Shown here: one piece after another, positions 1-38,067 of the stretch
Position numbering within the stretch: position 1 is the stretch's first letter
Layout of the letters: each line of letters begins with the position of its first letter
Virus record (IMG/VR): IMGVR_UViG_3300046680_000436
Coordinates: 1-38,067 of that record
DNA length: 38,067 bases
Origin: a virus
Strand: one strand, 5' to 3'
Made by a program: the position numbers and the translations under genes
The notes under the pieces: model-generated
Databases searched by the model: none
What the model saw: the letters and a program-made list of their open reading frames with translations, nothing else
What the model was told of the DNA's origin: nothing

Positions 1-546
1 GCCGGTTGCCGCGTCGGTTGCCGAGCGGGTTGCCGAGCGGGTTGCCGCGTCGGTTGCCGCGTCGGTTGCCGAGCGGGTTGCCGCGCCGGTTGCCGAGTAG
101 GTTGCCGAGCGGGTTGCCGAGCGGGTTGCCGCGTCGGTTGCCGCGCCGGTTGCCGCGTCGGTTGCCGAGTAGGTTGCCGAGTAGGTTGCCGCGTCGGTTG
201 CCGCGTCGGTTGCCGCGTCGGTTGCCGAGTAGGTTGCCGAGTAGGTTGCCGCGCCGGTTGCATCGCTCTTAGCTTGTTGCTTACGCCAATGCAAAATCCA
301 CGAAGCTGCACCATAAGCAAAGGCCATAACCGCAGGACTTGGAACGATAATAACGCGCGGCTCTTTCAAGTTTGCCGCAGCGTACAAGCTTTTGATGGCG
401 GGTACGATCTTGCCAGGGTCGATAGGTTCAGTACGCATGGCGCGCTTAATCCACAACTGTGCGTGTTCGTCGAGTTTGATCTTTTCTTCCGGGGTGACGC
501 CACCGCCAGCGAAGTCGGGACGACGGACAATTTTCGATATAGCCAT
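1..546 (-). CDS. Tetrapeptide-repeat protein, N-terminal part (runs off the contig start)
   Basis: Leftward frame from an ATG at 544-546, preceded by AGGAG about 9 bases upstream, open to base 1. Residues 1-93 are a unique domain that includes VRRPDF, GGGVTPEEK and a hydrophobic stretch PRVIIVPSPAVMAFAYGAAS, then a basic WRKQQAK. A degenerate SDAT unit and 21 perfect 4-residue units follow (DAAT, GAAT, RSAT, YSAT). The other end of the same array and its C-terminal domain are at 36977-38067 on the same strand. I infer one protein of about 540 or more residues, split by the contig break. Joining the ends directly is one base out of phase, so the true junction must lack or duplicate repeat sequence. 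Function unknown. The VPSP segment followed by an A-T repeat recalls uncharacterised phage and bacterial proteins, from memory only. Confidence 0.85.
   Translation of the reverse strand, partial: MAISKIVRRPDFAGGGVTPEEKIKLDEHAQLWIKRAMRTEPIDPGKIVPAIKSLYAAANLKEPRVIIVPSPAVMAFAYGAASWILHWRKQQAKSDATGAATYSATYSATDAATDAATDAATYSATYSATDAATGAATDAATRSATRSATYSATGAATRSATDAATDAATRSATRSATDAATG
4..267. repeat. 12-bp tandem repeat array, left end
   Basis: Twenty-one perfect-length 12-bp units with core GGTTGCCG (4-255) plus a degenerate unit to 267. Only the last four bases of a unit vary: CGTC, CGCC, AGCG or AGTA (taking the unit as GGTTGCC plus G and four bases). On the minus strand they encode DAAT, GAAT, RSAT and YSAT. 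The array has no spacers and keeps the frame of the leftward gene throughout. It is the same array as at 37652-38067 and is interrupted only by the contig ends. Confidence 0.97.
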
Positions 547-644
547 TTTGTTGCTCCTGTGAATTGGGTACTGCTTGTTTAAAACCGTTTATGGGTAACG
601 CAGAACAGAATTTAGGCCTTGGAAAACATGAAGTCAAGAACTTT

Positions 645-764: not shown

Positions 765-1001
765 ATGGTATCGGATCGTTTTAAGAAGTGGATGGAAACA
801 ACAACATTGACCCGCAAAAAAGAAGTAGCGAAGCAGGCCAAGTCCTCGCATATCCTGCTCTACCAGCTGGTAACAGGTCACCGGAACGCGTCCGCCGACC
901 TCGCCGCGCGGATCGAGTACGGGGCGAAGGGGGAAGTGGACCGCGGCGACTTGAACGCGACTTGTGCTTCCTGTAAATATTATAAGGAGTGCAAGAAATG
1001 A
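765..1001 (+). CDS. Cro/YdaS-like helix-turn-helix regulator
   Basis: A 78-residue protein with a strong ribosome site (AAGGAG, 7 bases before the ATG). Residues about 18-50 (KKEVAKQAKSS, then LYQLVTGHRNAS, then ADLAARIE) fit a helix-turn-helix of the Cro/YdaS type, where the recognition helix is followed by G-[HR]-R and an LAxRIE helix. The segment GEVDRGDL is also usual for that family. The tail CASCKYYKEC carries three Cys, which is unusual and could bind a metal. It is first in the rightward operon and shares ATGA with the next gene. By position and size it is the likely binder of the AGCANNTGCT sites. No CI-like partner repressor was found. Confidence 0.7.
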   Translation: MVSDRFKKWMETTTLTRKKEVAKQAKSSHILLYQLVTGHRNASADLAARIEYGAKGEVDRGDLNATCASCKYYKECKK

Positions 1002-12098: not shown

Positions 12099-12856
12099 AC
12101 GCCCTTCTTCGTAAGCTGCTGGCAAGTCTGTTTCTCGGTGTCAACGATGACGATTTGCCCTTTCCTCCTGACGATGACGACGAAACGCCACCGAGTGACG
12201 ATGACGACGAAACGCCACCGAGTGACGATGACGACGAAACGCCACCGAGTGACGATGACGACGAAACGCCACCAGCGCGCCAAGCCCGGCGTACTTCGCG
12301 TGACGACTCCAGTTCTCGCGCAGTATCCGACGCGCTGGAACGCGCGCGCCAGCTGGAAGAAGATGTCCGCGCGCTGAAAGCCAGCAACGCGGCGCCTTCC
12401 GAAGACCAGCGTTTGCGCGCTGACGAAGATCGCCAGCTCCAGGATCCGCAAACCGATCCCATGGTCAAATGGCAGATCAACGCCAATCGTACCCTGCGCG
12501 AAACGCAGCAAAACGCCAATCGCGCCCTGGCCGAAGCCCGTGACATGCAGGACCGGGCGGCGTTCATGTCCAAGGCCGCCGCCGATCCACGCCGCGCCAA
12601 GTACGAGGAGCGCATCGAGAAAGAGCTGAAAACGCTGCGCAATAAAGGCCAGAACGTCGACCGCGAAACGCTGTACTTCTACCAGCTCGGCAAGGACATC
12701 GCCGAGGGCAAGTTGAAGCCGGCGCCGAAGAAAGCGTCCAACGCCGCAAATGTACCGCGCGGCAAAACGCCGGCGGCGCGCAGCGATGTACGATCACGAG
12801 GAACAAGCAGAAGTTCGTCAGGCGCGCGTGAACGCCTGGCAGACAAACCCATTTAA
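12095..12856 (+). CDS. Putative scaffolding protein with acidic repeat
   Basis: A 253-residue, highly charged helical protein just before the major capsid gene, where scaffold genes sit. I chose the TTG at 12095: GGGAG lies upstream, and it overlaps the previous stop as TTGA. Residues about 26-60 are four tandem copies of DDDDETPPS encoded by a 27-bp repeat. A long coiled-coil-like segment follows (ALERARQLEEDVRALKAS, then ETQQNANRALAEARDMQDR), then a basic C-terminus (KKASNAANVPRGKTP, RSRGTSRSSSGARER) of the kind that binds the capsid shell. Family not identified by name. Confidence 0.7.
   Translation: MNALLRKLLASLFLGVNDDDLPFPPDDDDETPPSDDDDETPPSDDDDETPPSDDDDETPPARQARRTSRDDSSSRAVSDALERARQLEEDVRALKASNAAPSEDQRLRADEDRQLQDPQTDPMVKWQINANRTLRETQQNANRALAEARDMQDRAAFMSKAAADPRRAKYEERIEKELKTLRNKGQNVDRETLYFYQLGKDIAEGKLKPAPKKASNAANVPRGKTPAARSDVRSRGTSRSSSGARERLADKPI
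12170..12273. repeat. 27-bp tandem repeat in the scaffold-like gene
   Basis: Three complete 27-bp units and a fourth of 23 matching bases, nearly identical at DNA level, in frame and encoding DDDDETPPS. The near-perfect identity implies recent duplication, so copy number probably varies between related phages. Confidence 0.95.
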
Positions 12857-25332: not shown

Positions 25333-26673
25333 ATGAAAATACTAATTATCGATGTCGGCTCTAACGCCTTGGATTGGGCGATGCGTTGCCAGCTGTGGGG
25401 GCATGAGGTCATGTGGTACGACAAACCCCGTCCCGATGGCACACACCGCCGTGCCGGCGAGGGCATGATCAAGAAGATCACCGATTTCGATTCCCTGCGC
25501 AAGAAGTGGATCGGGTGGGCCGATTTGATTTATCTTCCCGACAACACCCACTACGTCGACATGCTGGACCCCTATCAACGGATCGGATACCCGATTTTCG
25601 GTTGCAACCTAGCGGCCCGGGAGTGGGAACTGGATCGGGAAGTCGGGCAGCAAGTCATGAAAGACTGCGGTATGCAGATCATCCCGGGCAAGACATTCCA
25701 CGACTACGACAGCGCCATCGCCTATGTCAAGAAACAAGGCAAGGCGTTCGTGTCCAAGCCCTCGGGTGACGGGGAGCGCGCCCTATCCTACGTTGCTGAC
25801 AGCGCCGCCGATCTGGTCTACATGTTAGGGCGCTGGAACAAGATCGACAAATACCGGAAATCGGCCAAGGGGGAAGGGTTTATTCTCCAGGAAAAGATTT
25901 CCGGTATGGAAATGGCTTGCGGCGGGTGGTTCGGTCCCGATGGTTGGAGCAAGTATTTCGTCGAAAACTTCGAGAACAAAAAACTCATGAACGGCGATTT
26001 AGGCGTTAATACTGGCGAAATGGGCACCACGGTGCGCTACGTGAAACACTCCAAGCTGGCCGACCAAGTGCTGCTGCCGGCAACCGATCGCTTGAAGGAA
26101 ATCGGTTACGTCGGCTACGTCGATAATAACTGCATGATCGATGAATCCGGTACTCCCTGGCCTTTGGAATGGACCATGCGTGATGGCTGGCCGATCCGGC
26201 ACAACCTGAATTCGCTCCACGAAGGCGACCCCGCACAGTGGATGCTGGACAAGATCAACGGCAAGGATACGTTGAAGCCTATCGTCGACCAGGTCAGTAT
26301 TTCCGTGGTCATGGCCCTACCCGATTTCCCGTATTCCAAGATCACGAATAAGGAACTTTGTGGTATCCCTCTTTATGGCGCCGATGACATGAACCATATT
26401 CACCTGTCCGAAGCCATGATGGGTGAAGCGCCGGTCGAGGTCAACGGCAAGGTGGTCGACCTGCCGTCCCTGGTGACCGCCGGCGATTACGTGCTGGTGT
26501 GCACCGGATCCGGGGAAACGATCACCGGCGCGCGCCGATCTGCCTATACCGCGATCAAAAAGGTTAAAATTCCGAATAGCCCGTTCTACCGTACCGACAT
26601 CGGCGCTGGCCGGCTCAAGAAACAACTGCCGGCGCTCCAGGCTCTGGGTTACGCCAAAGGGCTCACTTTCTAA
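25333..26673 (+). CDS. ATP-grasp protein, PurD (GARS)-like
   Basis: A 446-residue protein with the order of phosphoribosylamine-glycine ligase. It has an N-terminal MKILIIDVGSNALDWAMRC fold, an ATP-grasp core with K142 (VSKPSGDGERAL) and hinge residue E187 (ILQEKISGMEM), and a C-terminal part with GETITGARRSAYTAI and FYRTDIG as in PurD. The metal-binding signature differs: PurD's E-F-N-x-R-F-G-D becomes E269-W-T-M-R-D-G-W, so Thr replaces the metal-binding Asn. It may have another substrate. No ribosome site precedes the ATG, which lies beside the palindrome at 25321; it could be leaderless or depend on upstream ribosomes. Confidence 0.8.
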   Translation: MKILIIDVGSNALDWAMRCQLWGHEVMWYDKPRPDGTHRRAGEGMIKKITDFDSLRKKWIGWADLIYLPDNTHYVDMLDPYQRIGYPIFGCNLAAREWELDREVGQQVMKDCGMQIIPGKTFHDYDSAIAYVKKQGKAFVSKPSGDGERALSYVADSAADLVYMLGRWNKIDKYRKSAKGEGFILQEKISGMEMACGGWFGPDGWSKYFVENFENKKLMNGDLGVNTGEMGTTVRYVKHSKLADQVLLPATDRLKEIGYVGYVDNNCMIDESGTPWPLEWTMRDGWPIRHNLNSLHEGDPAQWMLDKINGKDTLKPIVDQVSISVVMALPDFPYSKITNKELCGIPLYGADDMNHIHLSEAMMGEAPVEVNGKVVDLPSLVTAGDYVLVCTGSGETITGARRSAYTAIKKVKIPNSPFYRTDIGAGRLKKQLPALQALGYAKGLTF

Positions 26674-35910: not shown

Positions 35911-36582
35911 TTAGAATTTGTACTTCAATGACAACAAATGCGTGTGCTTCCAGATTGTGGAGGAGGAGTCATTCTTTACCCCGTCATTGGAAAAATATTG
36001 ATACGACAGCGTGAAGTTATTGCGCCCGACGGACAGCCCGTACATCGAACTCCACACCCAACGATTCATGTTCCGTGCATACACCGTTTGCGGCGGTACA
36101 CTCGGGTTCGGCTGCCAGTCGTAGACAACTTCCGAGAACAGGGGCTTGTGCAGGTAGGGCCCGATCTCAGCGCCTAGCCGCCAGCCATTTATAACGACGT
36201 AGGGCTCTACCGAAAACAAAACCCCTTGGTCGTGACCGCTGCCTACAAAATTTGCCAACGGCAGGCACTTCCCGTTGCACTTCTTGGCGCCCACATCATA
36301 ATTCGCATCATCCGGTGTGGCCACCGCCTGGGTATGGACCGCGCCCAAATATACCCAATCGACGTGATAAGCCAGACCGTAACCTGGACGACGCCACAAG
36401 TCACCCGTTACCCCGATCTCCACCGCTGTCGGAGTCAACTGCAGGCTGTTCTGGAAACCTTCCTGATACCAGTAACCGTCAGCCTTTTTATCGTAGTGCG
36501 CACCACCTACGCCCATTTCAAAATCGACCGCCCCGGCTGACAGGCAAAAACATGTTAAAAATAAAAAGGCGGTCGATTTCAT
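35911..36582 (-). CDS. Secreted outer-membrane beta-barrel protein
   Basis: A 223-residue protein with a signal peptide (MKSTAFLFLTCFCLSAGA, likely cleaved after A18) and a mature part of alternating aromatic/polar strands (DFEMGVGGAHYD, YGLAYHVDWVYLGAV, WVWSSMYGLSVGRNNFTLSYQYF). The last strand ends LLSLKYKF with terminal Phe, the sorting signal recognised by the Bam complex. It therefore goes to the outer membrane. The ATG has GGAG about 9 bases upstream. It could block superinfection or alter the surface. The segment YQYFSNDGV slightly resembles lipid A deacylase (PagL-type) sites, but the catalytic His is absent. Confidence 0.8.
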   Translation of the reverse strand: MKSTAFLFLTCFCLSAGAVDFEMGVGGAHYDKKADGYWYQEGFQNSLQLTPTAVEIGVTGDLWRRPGYGLAYHVDWVYLGAVHTQAVATPDDANYDVGAKKCNGKCLPLANFVGSGHDQGVLFSVEPYVVINGWRLGAEIGPYLHKPLFSEVVYDWQPNPSVPPQTVYARNMNRWVWSSMYGLSVGRNNFTLSYQYFSNDGVKNDSSSTIWKHTHLLSLKYKF

Positions 36583-36607: not shown

Positions 36608-36961
36608 TTAGTCTTCGACGCGGCGCCAGCCTTCCGGCGAGTATTCGCGTTGCCGGCGGATTTCGTAATTGCCGGGGGTGATCTTGATCGTTTCGTGCGT
36701 GTCATAGCTGCGCAGATGCTCCAACAACGTTTCGGTCGCGTCCGTTGCTTCGATCACCTGCAGATACGACATCATAGGATCGCCTGTCGTCAGCAGCCGC
36801 ACGTTAGGCCGTGCTTCGATCACATGGTTGTGACCCGTTTCGCTGTGGGCGACGACGAATTGCCCTTTTTCGGCTGTAACTGCTACAGCGTTAGCCGGGA
36901 TGGATTCGATACGAATGATCATCAGGTCCCCTTGTGCTGCCATTTTGTTAAAAGTCTTCAT
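36608..36961 (-). CDS. Conserved small partner of the repeat protein
   Basis: A 117-residue protein, 15 bases after the stop of the repeat-protein gene and with AAGGAG upstream. Motifs: AAQGDLMIIRIESIP, VVAHSETGHNHVIE, DTHETIKITPGNYEIRRQREYSPEGWRRVED. Several His residues (SETGHNH; DTHE) could bind metal, and the order of strands suggests a cupin-like or other beta barrel. I recall relatives beside AAT-repeat/DUF6745-like proteins in phages and bacteria; this is memory, not a search. Function unknown. Confidence 0.7.
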   Translation of the reverse strand: MKTFNKMAAQGDLMIIRIESIPANAVAVTAEKGQFVVAHSETGHNHVIEARPNVRLLTTGDPMMSYLQVIEATDATETLLEHLRSYDTHETIKITPGNYEIRRQREYSPEGWRRVED

Positions 36962-36976
36962 TTCAATACTCCTTGG

Positions 36977-38067
36977 TTAAGTACGTACTTCGGGTGAAAA
37001 ATCTTTAGGGTCAAGACCGTAGGTCCATGCGTTTGCCTGGATTGCGGTCTTCATGTTCGGCGGGACGGGAAGTGCAAACTGGCGACCTGTGCCACATTTC
37101 ACTTGCAAGAAACGCTCACGGCCGGAGTCTGGTAAGTCGACCTCGAGCAGCGTTCCTATTTCCTCGTCACCGTCTTCGTCAATAACCCGAGCATTCAGTT
37201 CGTTGAGGATTTTTGACCAGCCGACAATTTCACACGCCGCGCGGCGTTGTTCGATGTTCGACCAGGTAAGCGCTTCTTTCGCAGAAGGTGGCTTGCCGCT
37301 CACCCATTCTCCCGGAATTGCCACGCCGTGCCAGTAATACAGGCTCCACCCATCGCGCCACCGATGAGAGGGACCGTTTTCGCAATGTGGGCGGTTTTCG
37401 TTGTCGACTTTCAAAATCTCAGGAAAATCACTCACCATACAGAAATCTTCGTGCATGACACGGAAACCGCCTTCAATTGCACACTGTTCCCAAGCCGCAT
37501 ACTTCTCGTGAACAGGTAATCTCAAGCCTAAAATGTCGCGACATGCGGAGAGATAGCAATCATAAGACGCCCACATATTTCCCCCCTGATACGCCGCCGA
37601 CCATCGCTGCGCGCATTTCAGACCCCCAAAACCCGCCAAATCTTCGCAAGCAGCTGCCGCGTCGGTTGCCGCGCCGGTTGCCGCGTCGGTTGCCGAGCGG
37701 GTTGCCGAGCGGGTTGCCGCGTCGGTTGCCGAGCGGGTTGCCGAGCGGGTTGCCGCGCCGGTTGCCGCGCCGGTTGCCGCGCCGGTTGCCGAGTAGGTTG
37801 CCGCGCCGGTTGCCGCGCCGGTTGCCGAGCGGGTTGCCGCGTCGGTTGCCGAGTAGGTTGCCGCGTCGGTTGCCGCGTCGGTTGCCGCGTCGGTTGCCGA
37901 GTAGGTTGCCGAGAGGGTTGCCGAGTAGGTTGCCGCGCCGGTTGCCGCGCCGGTTGCCGAGCGGGTTGCCGCGTCGGTTGCCGAGTAGGTTGCCGAGTAG
38001 GTTGCCGCGTCGGTTGCCGCGTCGGTTGCCGAGTAGGTTGCCGCGCCGGTTGCCGAGCGGGTTGCCG
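36977..38067 (-). CDS. Tetrapeptide-repeat protein, C-terminal part (enters at the contig end)
   Basis: The frame is open from the last bases of the window. It has 33 complete X-[A/S]-A-T units and one degenerate DAAA, then a unique C-terminal domain of about 224 residues. A TTG at 37639 could start a shorter product, but the frame remains open upstream and no ribosome site is present. The C-terminal domain has SYDCYLSACRDILGLRLPVHEKY, FRVMHEDFCMVSDFPEILKVD, NENRPHCENGPSHRWRDG and SLYYWHGVAIPGEW. These match what I recall of DUF6745, an uncharacterised domain. The N-terminal half is at 1-546. Enzyme or binding function unknown; HCENGPSHRWRDGW is rich in conserved-looking His, Cys and Trp. Confidence 0.85.
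   Translation of the reverse strand, partial: ATRSATGAATYSATDAATDAATYSATYSATDAATRSATGAATGAATYSATLSATYSATDAATDAATDAATYSATDAATRSATGAATGAATYSATGAATGAATGAATRSATRSATDAATRSATRSATDAATGAATDAAAACEDLAGFGGLKCAQRWSAAYQGGNMWASYDCYLSACRDILGLRLPVHEKYAAWEQCAIEGGFRVMHEDFCMVSDFPEILKVDNENRPHCENGPSHRWRDGWSLYYWHGVAIPGEWVSGKPPSAKEALTWSNIEQRRAACEIVGWSKILNELNARVIDEDGDEEIGTLLEVDLPDSGRERFLQVKCGTGRQFALPVPPNMKTAIQANAWTYGLDPKDFSPEVRT
37652..38067. repeat. 12-bp tandem repeat array, right end
   Basis: Thirty-three full 12-bp units (37664-38059), a degenerate unit at 37652-37663 and a partial one at the end. The unit types are the same four as at the left end, with one extra variant encoding LSAT near 37907. Across both arrays, units whose first residue is D or G always carry A second, and units with R, Y or L always carry S. 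The end and the start of the window are out of phase by one base. Confidence 0.97.

Follow-up and report, generated by a model that had tools for sequence, protein, structure and literature searches.

A phage gene split by its contig ends belongs to a widespread DUF6745 gene set with a fast-changing tetrapeptide array

The two incomplete reading frames at the ends of the 38,067-nucleotide viral sequence analyzed here (the window, an IMG/VR virus record) are halves of one gene, and this gene belongs to a widespread, undescribed gene set whose fast-changing repeat is either internal to a protein or encoded separately by a small gene. In the window the protein is laid out as an N-domain, an array of tetrapeptides and a DUF6745 domain, and its gene lies next to a small partner gene, P. 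By analogy with Tweety gp54 we tentatively favor the reading that DUF6745 and P make up a retunable early accessory anti-host module in which the array would serve as the recognition arm. The features of the window on which the analysis bears are the following.

268..546, minus strand: the gene of the DUF6745 family begins here; its N-terminal domain (residues 1-93) is conserved in relatives.
1..267, minus strand: N-side array, SDAT followed by 21 units X-[A/S]-A-T, truncated where the contig ends.
37655..38067, minus strand: C-side array with 33 complete units, likewise truncated.
36977..37654, minus strand: C-terminal part and stop codon, with the PF20530 match at about 37504-36980.
36608..36961, minus strand: partner gene P, 117 aa, all-beta model, conserved His/Glu; adjoins DUF6745 in most relatives.
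609..637, minus strand: weak sigma-70-like promoter match upstream of the DUF6745 gene (9/12 positions, a consensus match only).
765..1001, plus strand: divergent 78-aa ORF, a putative early repressor, which bounds the module slot; no Pfam match; in phage L207 an ORF with 45% identity occupies this place.

The leftward frame 546-1 is open from an ATG start over 182 aa (M...KSDATGAATYSAT...), and the leftward frame 38065-36977 is open over 362 aa up to a stop codon (ATRSATGAAT...DAAAACEDLAG...PEVRT). Both run through the identical 12-bp array, for which Tandem Repeats Finder gave 322-371 at the left end and 497 at the right end, far above chance. A sequence-only reading had proposed that the two frames form one gene across the contig junction, with at least 55 tetrapeptide repeats, a unique N-terminus on one side and a unique C-terminus on the other. 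The N side holds 22 complete units and the C side 33; the total of 55 is a lower bound for the copy number, the contig ends lying within the array. Relatives carry the N-domain, the array and the C-domain in a single frame (L003/L105 with 422 codons, L010, L012, L112 and many others), which shows that the two frames are indeed halves of one gene whose unique C-terminus is DUF6745. The junction itself stood only in part: when base 1 is joined directly to base 38067, an 11-nt unit results that is one base out of frame, which indicates that the contig terminates within the array on both sides and that this join does not exist in the real molecule. Taken by itself, the failure of the ends to join in frame would be expected of an assembly artefact, that is, of two separate genes or a chimeric array. 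We consider this extremely improbable in view of the intact one-frame relatives and of three sister contigs (3300046543_000614, 3300006028_000021 and 3300046511_000576) that are likewise interrupted in the array, each carrying the N part and the C part at opposite ends. The break would fit a genome that is circular or circularly permuted and was assembled from short reads across a long array.

The suspected DUF6745-like domain was confirmed by a match of the C part to PF20530 over profile positions 28-206 (E 1.9e-19; 70.2 bits against a Pfam gathering score of 27 bits), and DUF6745 was the only Pfam family matched by the window protein. An HMM of the N-domain matches the N part of the window as well as the intact relatives, so that the N-region of the family resides in the same gene. 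In the AlphaFold model of the intact relative L003, the residues equivalent to the N-domain mostly have a pLDDT >90, whereas the array is a low-confidence helical hairpin (pLDDT about 50-72). The flanking domains are thus confidently predicted, but the Thr-based solenoid or plain rod suggested earlier for the array is not supported. This suggestion also conflicts with the presence of V or L at the position of Thr in other lineages, which indicates that Thr is dispensable, and with the separate array gene of one phage clade described below.

That the two genes were undescribed, as first supposed, agrees with our searches. DUF6745 is not mentioned in the literature searched, PDB fold searches with P and with L003 gave no significant match (which does not make the folds new), and PADLOC models matched neither P nor the DUF6745 relatives L003 and L097. 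A PDB match to the antifreeze protein 4ke2 was discarded as a match of Ala/Thr-rich composition only, and the one weak PADLOC match (E 0.009) fell in the repeat region of a chromosomal DUF6745 relative. The arrays of the window and its relatives do not have the A(D/N)LXX period of pentapeptide repeats (Rfr), their own being 12 bp or four residues, and the window protein gave no such Pfam match. Bases 1-25000 of the window have no near DNA relative among GenBank phages.

The gene at 36608 had been put forward as a partner, with a co-occurrence search as the way to check it. Among 80 viral loci picked by P alone, 75 also carry the N or C domain of DUF6745 (the exceptions are L045, L048, L053, L054 and L056), and the two genes are usually adjacent, in either order. 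P is therefore a genuine partner of the DUF6745 gene. Named phages with the pair are MW202476, the Mycobacterium prophage prophiGD102-1 (genes 37-38) and Microcystis phage Ma-LMM01, where gp174 is accompanied by the P-like gp175. A genome scan found the DUF6745 family in Proteobacteria, Actinobacteria, Cyanobacteria and others, with P mostly adjoining, and a plasmid search gave one match for P. Several His, Glu, Gln and Arg residues of P hardly vary, and the structure model of P is all-beta (pLDDT 82); the only match in a BFVD search was an uncharacterised relative.

In the window the module sits between the divergent 78-aa ORF and an early operon encoding, in order, an outer-membrane-like protein, an exonuclease (DUF2800), an Enc34-type ssDNA-binding protein, DNA polymerase A and a helicase. 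The syntenic phage L207 keeps the gene order (repressor, two small ORFs, OMP-exo-ssb) without the module, indicating that the module is accessory. The gene adjoining P (35911-36582, minus strand) encodes 223 aa with a signal-peptide-like start and the look of an outer-membrane beta-barrel; it has a 55% identical counterpart in the module-less L207 and its product is possibly a phage-encoded surface or exclusion protein. Elsewhere in this phage genome we observed a perfect 27-bp tandem repeat of 3.9 copies in the structural-gene region (12169-12273; TGACGATGACGACGAAACGCCACCGAG) and a 446-aa gene (25333-26670, plus strand) matching the ATP-grasp and C domains of phosphoribosylglycinamide synthetase.

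The P and DUF6745 pair also occurs, without arrays, on many actinobacterial and other bacterial chromosomes, where the neighbours of DUF6745 copies include no recurrent Pfam or PADLOC family. Such chromosomal copies, with their non-repeat linkers, suggest an older role that may be unconnected to phage defence. One could go further and regard the pair as a two-gene regulatory or metabolic unit of chromosomes that phages have captured, the array being a lineage-specific elaboration unrelated to defence. The array-free chromosomal pairs and the lack of recurrent defence genes beside them agree with this, but it accounts poorly for an array that evolves unusually fast and for the accessory slot of the window module, upstream of the exonuclease and ssDNA-binding genes. 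We judge it unlikely and retain the anti-host reading.

The site between the N and C domains of relatives is occupied by about 21 aa (one phage clade), by a non-repeat linker of about 85 aa or more (most chromosomal copies) or by an array. Arrays at this same site are of the types xxAT, xxQV, xxQL, xxSV, xxAV and xxNL, which are of similar chemistry, and xxSL, and a tree of 135 C domains requires 23 changes among eight states. A further unit class, 'AA', was discarded as a phase artefact of TxAA in XAAT arrays. We analyzed the variability of the 12 nucleotide positions of the unit in 61 nonredundant arrays: positions 1-12 are variable in 61, 43, 10, 13, 42, 5, 6, 4, 5, 3, 1 and 7 arrays, respectively. 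Nearly all variation falls in bases 1-2 of codon 1 (X) and in the middle base of codon 2. By contrast, third codon positions (3, 6, 9 and 12) vary in just 10, 5, 5 and 7 of the 61 arrays. Third positions are near-fixed within an array, but the synonymous codons used for the constant residues differ between arrays, and selection therefore acts on the protein. The X residue, and partly the second residue, are thus diversified under protein-level selection, although the single-nucleotide variation could partly stem from homogenisation of a few founder units.

The array also turns over fast, judging from close relatives: the C domains of L003 and L007 are 99% identical and their arrays differ in length and unit types, and among near-identical relatives length differs in 12-bp steps. 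Array types differ likewise between the close mycobacterial DUF6745 genes L145 and L150 (xSAV and x[A/D]SV). In the array of L042 (L042:3-1376), GSSR, then KSGL, then AQVG represent one 12-bp unit read in three frames, which indicates that indels within an array shift the frame without introducing a stop. The perfect 12-bp tandem structure, together with recent block duplications in some arrays, is what would be expected of a neutral minisatellite or of a DNA element (iteron, packaging or recombination site) translated by chance. Such an origin is disfavored by the codon-position data, since the protein grammar is the same across lineages that use different synonymous codons; moreover, the array is always found at the same place in one protein, and in trans it forms a coding gene with a recurrent MKSV start. 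We therefore regard it as very improbable. In 20 of 46 non-array chromosomal linkers, which are not all independent, V/L/I/M at every fourth residue exceeds shuffled sequences (p <0.05); the four-residue period consequently appears to be older than the minisatellites.

To survey arrays irrespective of their flanks we used a DNA pattern blind to flanking sequence and retained loci with at least 8 units. DUF6745 genes make up 147 of these 179 loci, and several of the remaining loci are small ORFs built of xxQV units only. In phages with a short linker a separate array ORF often starts with MKSVKxQV..., is about 56-116 aa long and sits close to the module, with which it almost always shares the strand. 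Such an array in trans was found in 20 of 24 nonredundant short-linker phage loci, compared with 1 of 27 phages with an internal array; it was absent from all 59 bacterial loci and present in 2 of 63 control loci. The Fisher value of this association (2.5e-9) is overstated, because the split from cis to trans is a single event on the tree and the 20 loci are not independent cases; a test restricted to independent pairs had one pair only. The array gene is kept in 18 of 23 rows of this clade; the clade is nevertheless diverse, and the position of the gene varies. In the reverse check, 11 records with all-array ORFs carried DUF6745 in 8 cases and P in 7.

A second family of xxQV arrays with other flanking domains was also observed (L421:1949-2908, L426:3203-4012, L429:5335-6141, and also L355, L386, L392 and L440), flanked by ...NPYQATKLP.LKDIKKRL on the N side and YWAIKVTLGLPIKHWFFDFLKLGI..FGKKGKYLGEY on the C side. 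No DUF6745 match was found in these records and the profile match covers just 8 columns, so that the reading of this family as a divergent DUF6745 is not supported.

The existence of a separate array gene in one phage clade indicates that the array is not merely a rod or covalent spacer joining two domains. A passive spacer or ruler, in which length alone would set the distance between the N-domain and DUF6745, draws on the fixed position of the array between two confidently folded domains, on the 12-bp length steps and on a review of Tweety gp54 that proposes juxtaposition of its end domains as the tuned property. An array encoded apart cannot hold two domains apart, however, and pure length selection does not predict variation concentrated at X with third positions fixed; we find this explanation rather unlikely. 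The array might instead be a putative multivalent sticker polymer, with regularly spaced Arg, Tyr/Trp, Asp and Gly, that would seed a scaffold or condensate together with P and DUF6745 and for which composition would matter and order would not. The four commonest array types converge, despite different codons, on similar contents per unit (aromatic about 0.25, basic 0.24-0.37, acidic 0.38-0.50), and they contain little Lys; in most arrays the X residues follow one another in statistically random order, and the array can occur as its own gene. Against such a polymer, the near absence of Pro and the strict four-residue period with a fixed residue point to a regular structure, and the hydrophobic period of the non-repeat chromosomal linkers points the same way. 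This second explanation likewise seems to us to be on the unlikely side.

In the anti-host reading that we favor, the DUF6745 core and P would form a complex on which the array docks as a recognition or tuning arm. Recombination between 12-bp units would change, in one step and with the frame kept, the length of the array and the order of Arg, Asp, Tyr/Trp and Gly, and would let each phage lineage retarget the arm, most likely against a fast-evolving host or prophage defence protein. The module would then be an early-made counter-defence or anti-host factor, similar to Tweety gp54 in its working and unrelated to it in descent. A bolder version, possible but more doubtful, is an undescribed three-part system of phages and bacteria in which the DUF6745 core and P, the small beta protein, are accompanied by a combinatorial tetrapeptide polymer, either in cis or in trans. 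The X residues of this polymer would provide a recognition surface, shuffled by recombination, on a new fold of four-residue period. If this is true, phages and perhaps their hosts share a module, found widely, in which rapid functional change is laid down in the number and order of four-residue repeats, a protein-based, minisatellite-driven way of retargeting an anti-host factor. Tweety gp54 would turn from a single odd case into one example of a common solution at which unrelated proteins arrived independently. The module would also give a first entry point to DUF6745, an uncharacterised family, and to P, and the binding partner of the separate array gene should reveal the role of the internal array.

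Comparison with known systems places the module as follows. Chromosomal DUF6745 proteins (PF20530) share both the N and C domains and usually an adjoining P homologue, and nearly half of the 46 non-array linkers show a degenerate form of the period; they differ in having mostly a non-repeat linker where the window gene has an array. Bordetella phage BPP-1 resembles the window in its early genes (polymerase 58%, helicase 58%, ssDNA-binding protein 48% and exonuclease 39% identical) and carries in the equivalent early-region slot bbp36 (VR2), a nonessential gene of variable repeat number. In contrast to the window gene, bbp36 (L450:32776-33705) has DUF7666 and an 8-residue GTATAGYR repeat and gave no match to the DUF6745 models; the window gene, which matched DUF6745 and not DUF7666 and has 12-bp rather than 24-bp units, is therefore not of the bbp36 type. 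Tweety gp54 (Che8 gp57, PMC gp51) has a 12-bp unit and a tetrapeptide array between unique N and C parts, a copy number that varies between close relatives, a gene missing from one close relative, and substitutions at first and second codon positions only, a pattern that is also found in the DUF6745 arrays with their fixed third positions. Its gene is thought to be nonessential and the 12-bp design and codon-position pattern have been described (PMC2884959, PMC9262239, PMC8549241); escape mutants with more or fewer tetrapeptides overcome a prophage-borne defence (PMC9262239, PMC8549241), and the repeat number of this counter-defence protein is reported to tune its action. It differs in its unit, AA[GWQ][SY], in the lack of an adjoining P gene and in its flanks, which Pfam, HMM and profile comparison show to be unrelated to DUF6745: gp54 matched neither PF20530 nor the N and C models, and hhalign aligned a trivial 9 columns, so that we rejected it as a homologue. 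The likeness between the two accordingly lies in the working principle, and in this respect Tweety gp54 appears to be the closest working analogue of the DUF6745 array module.
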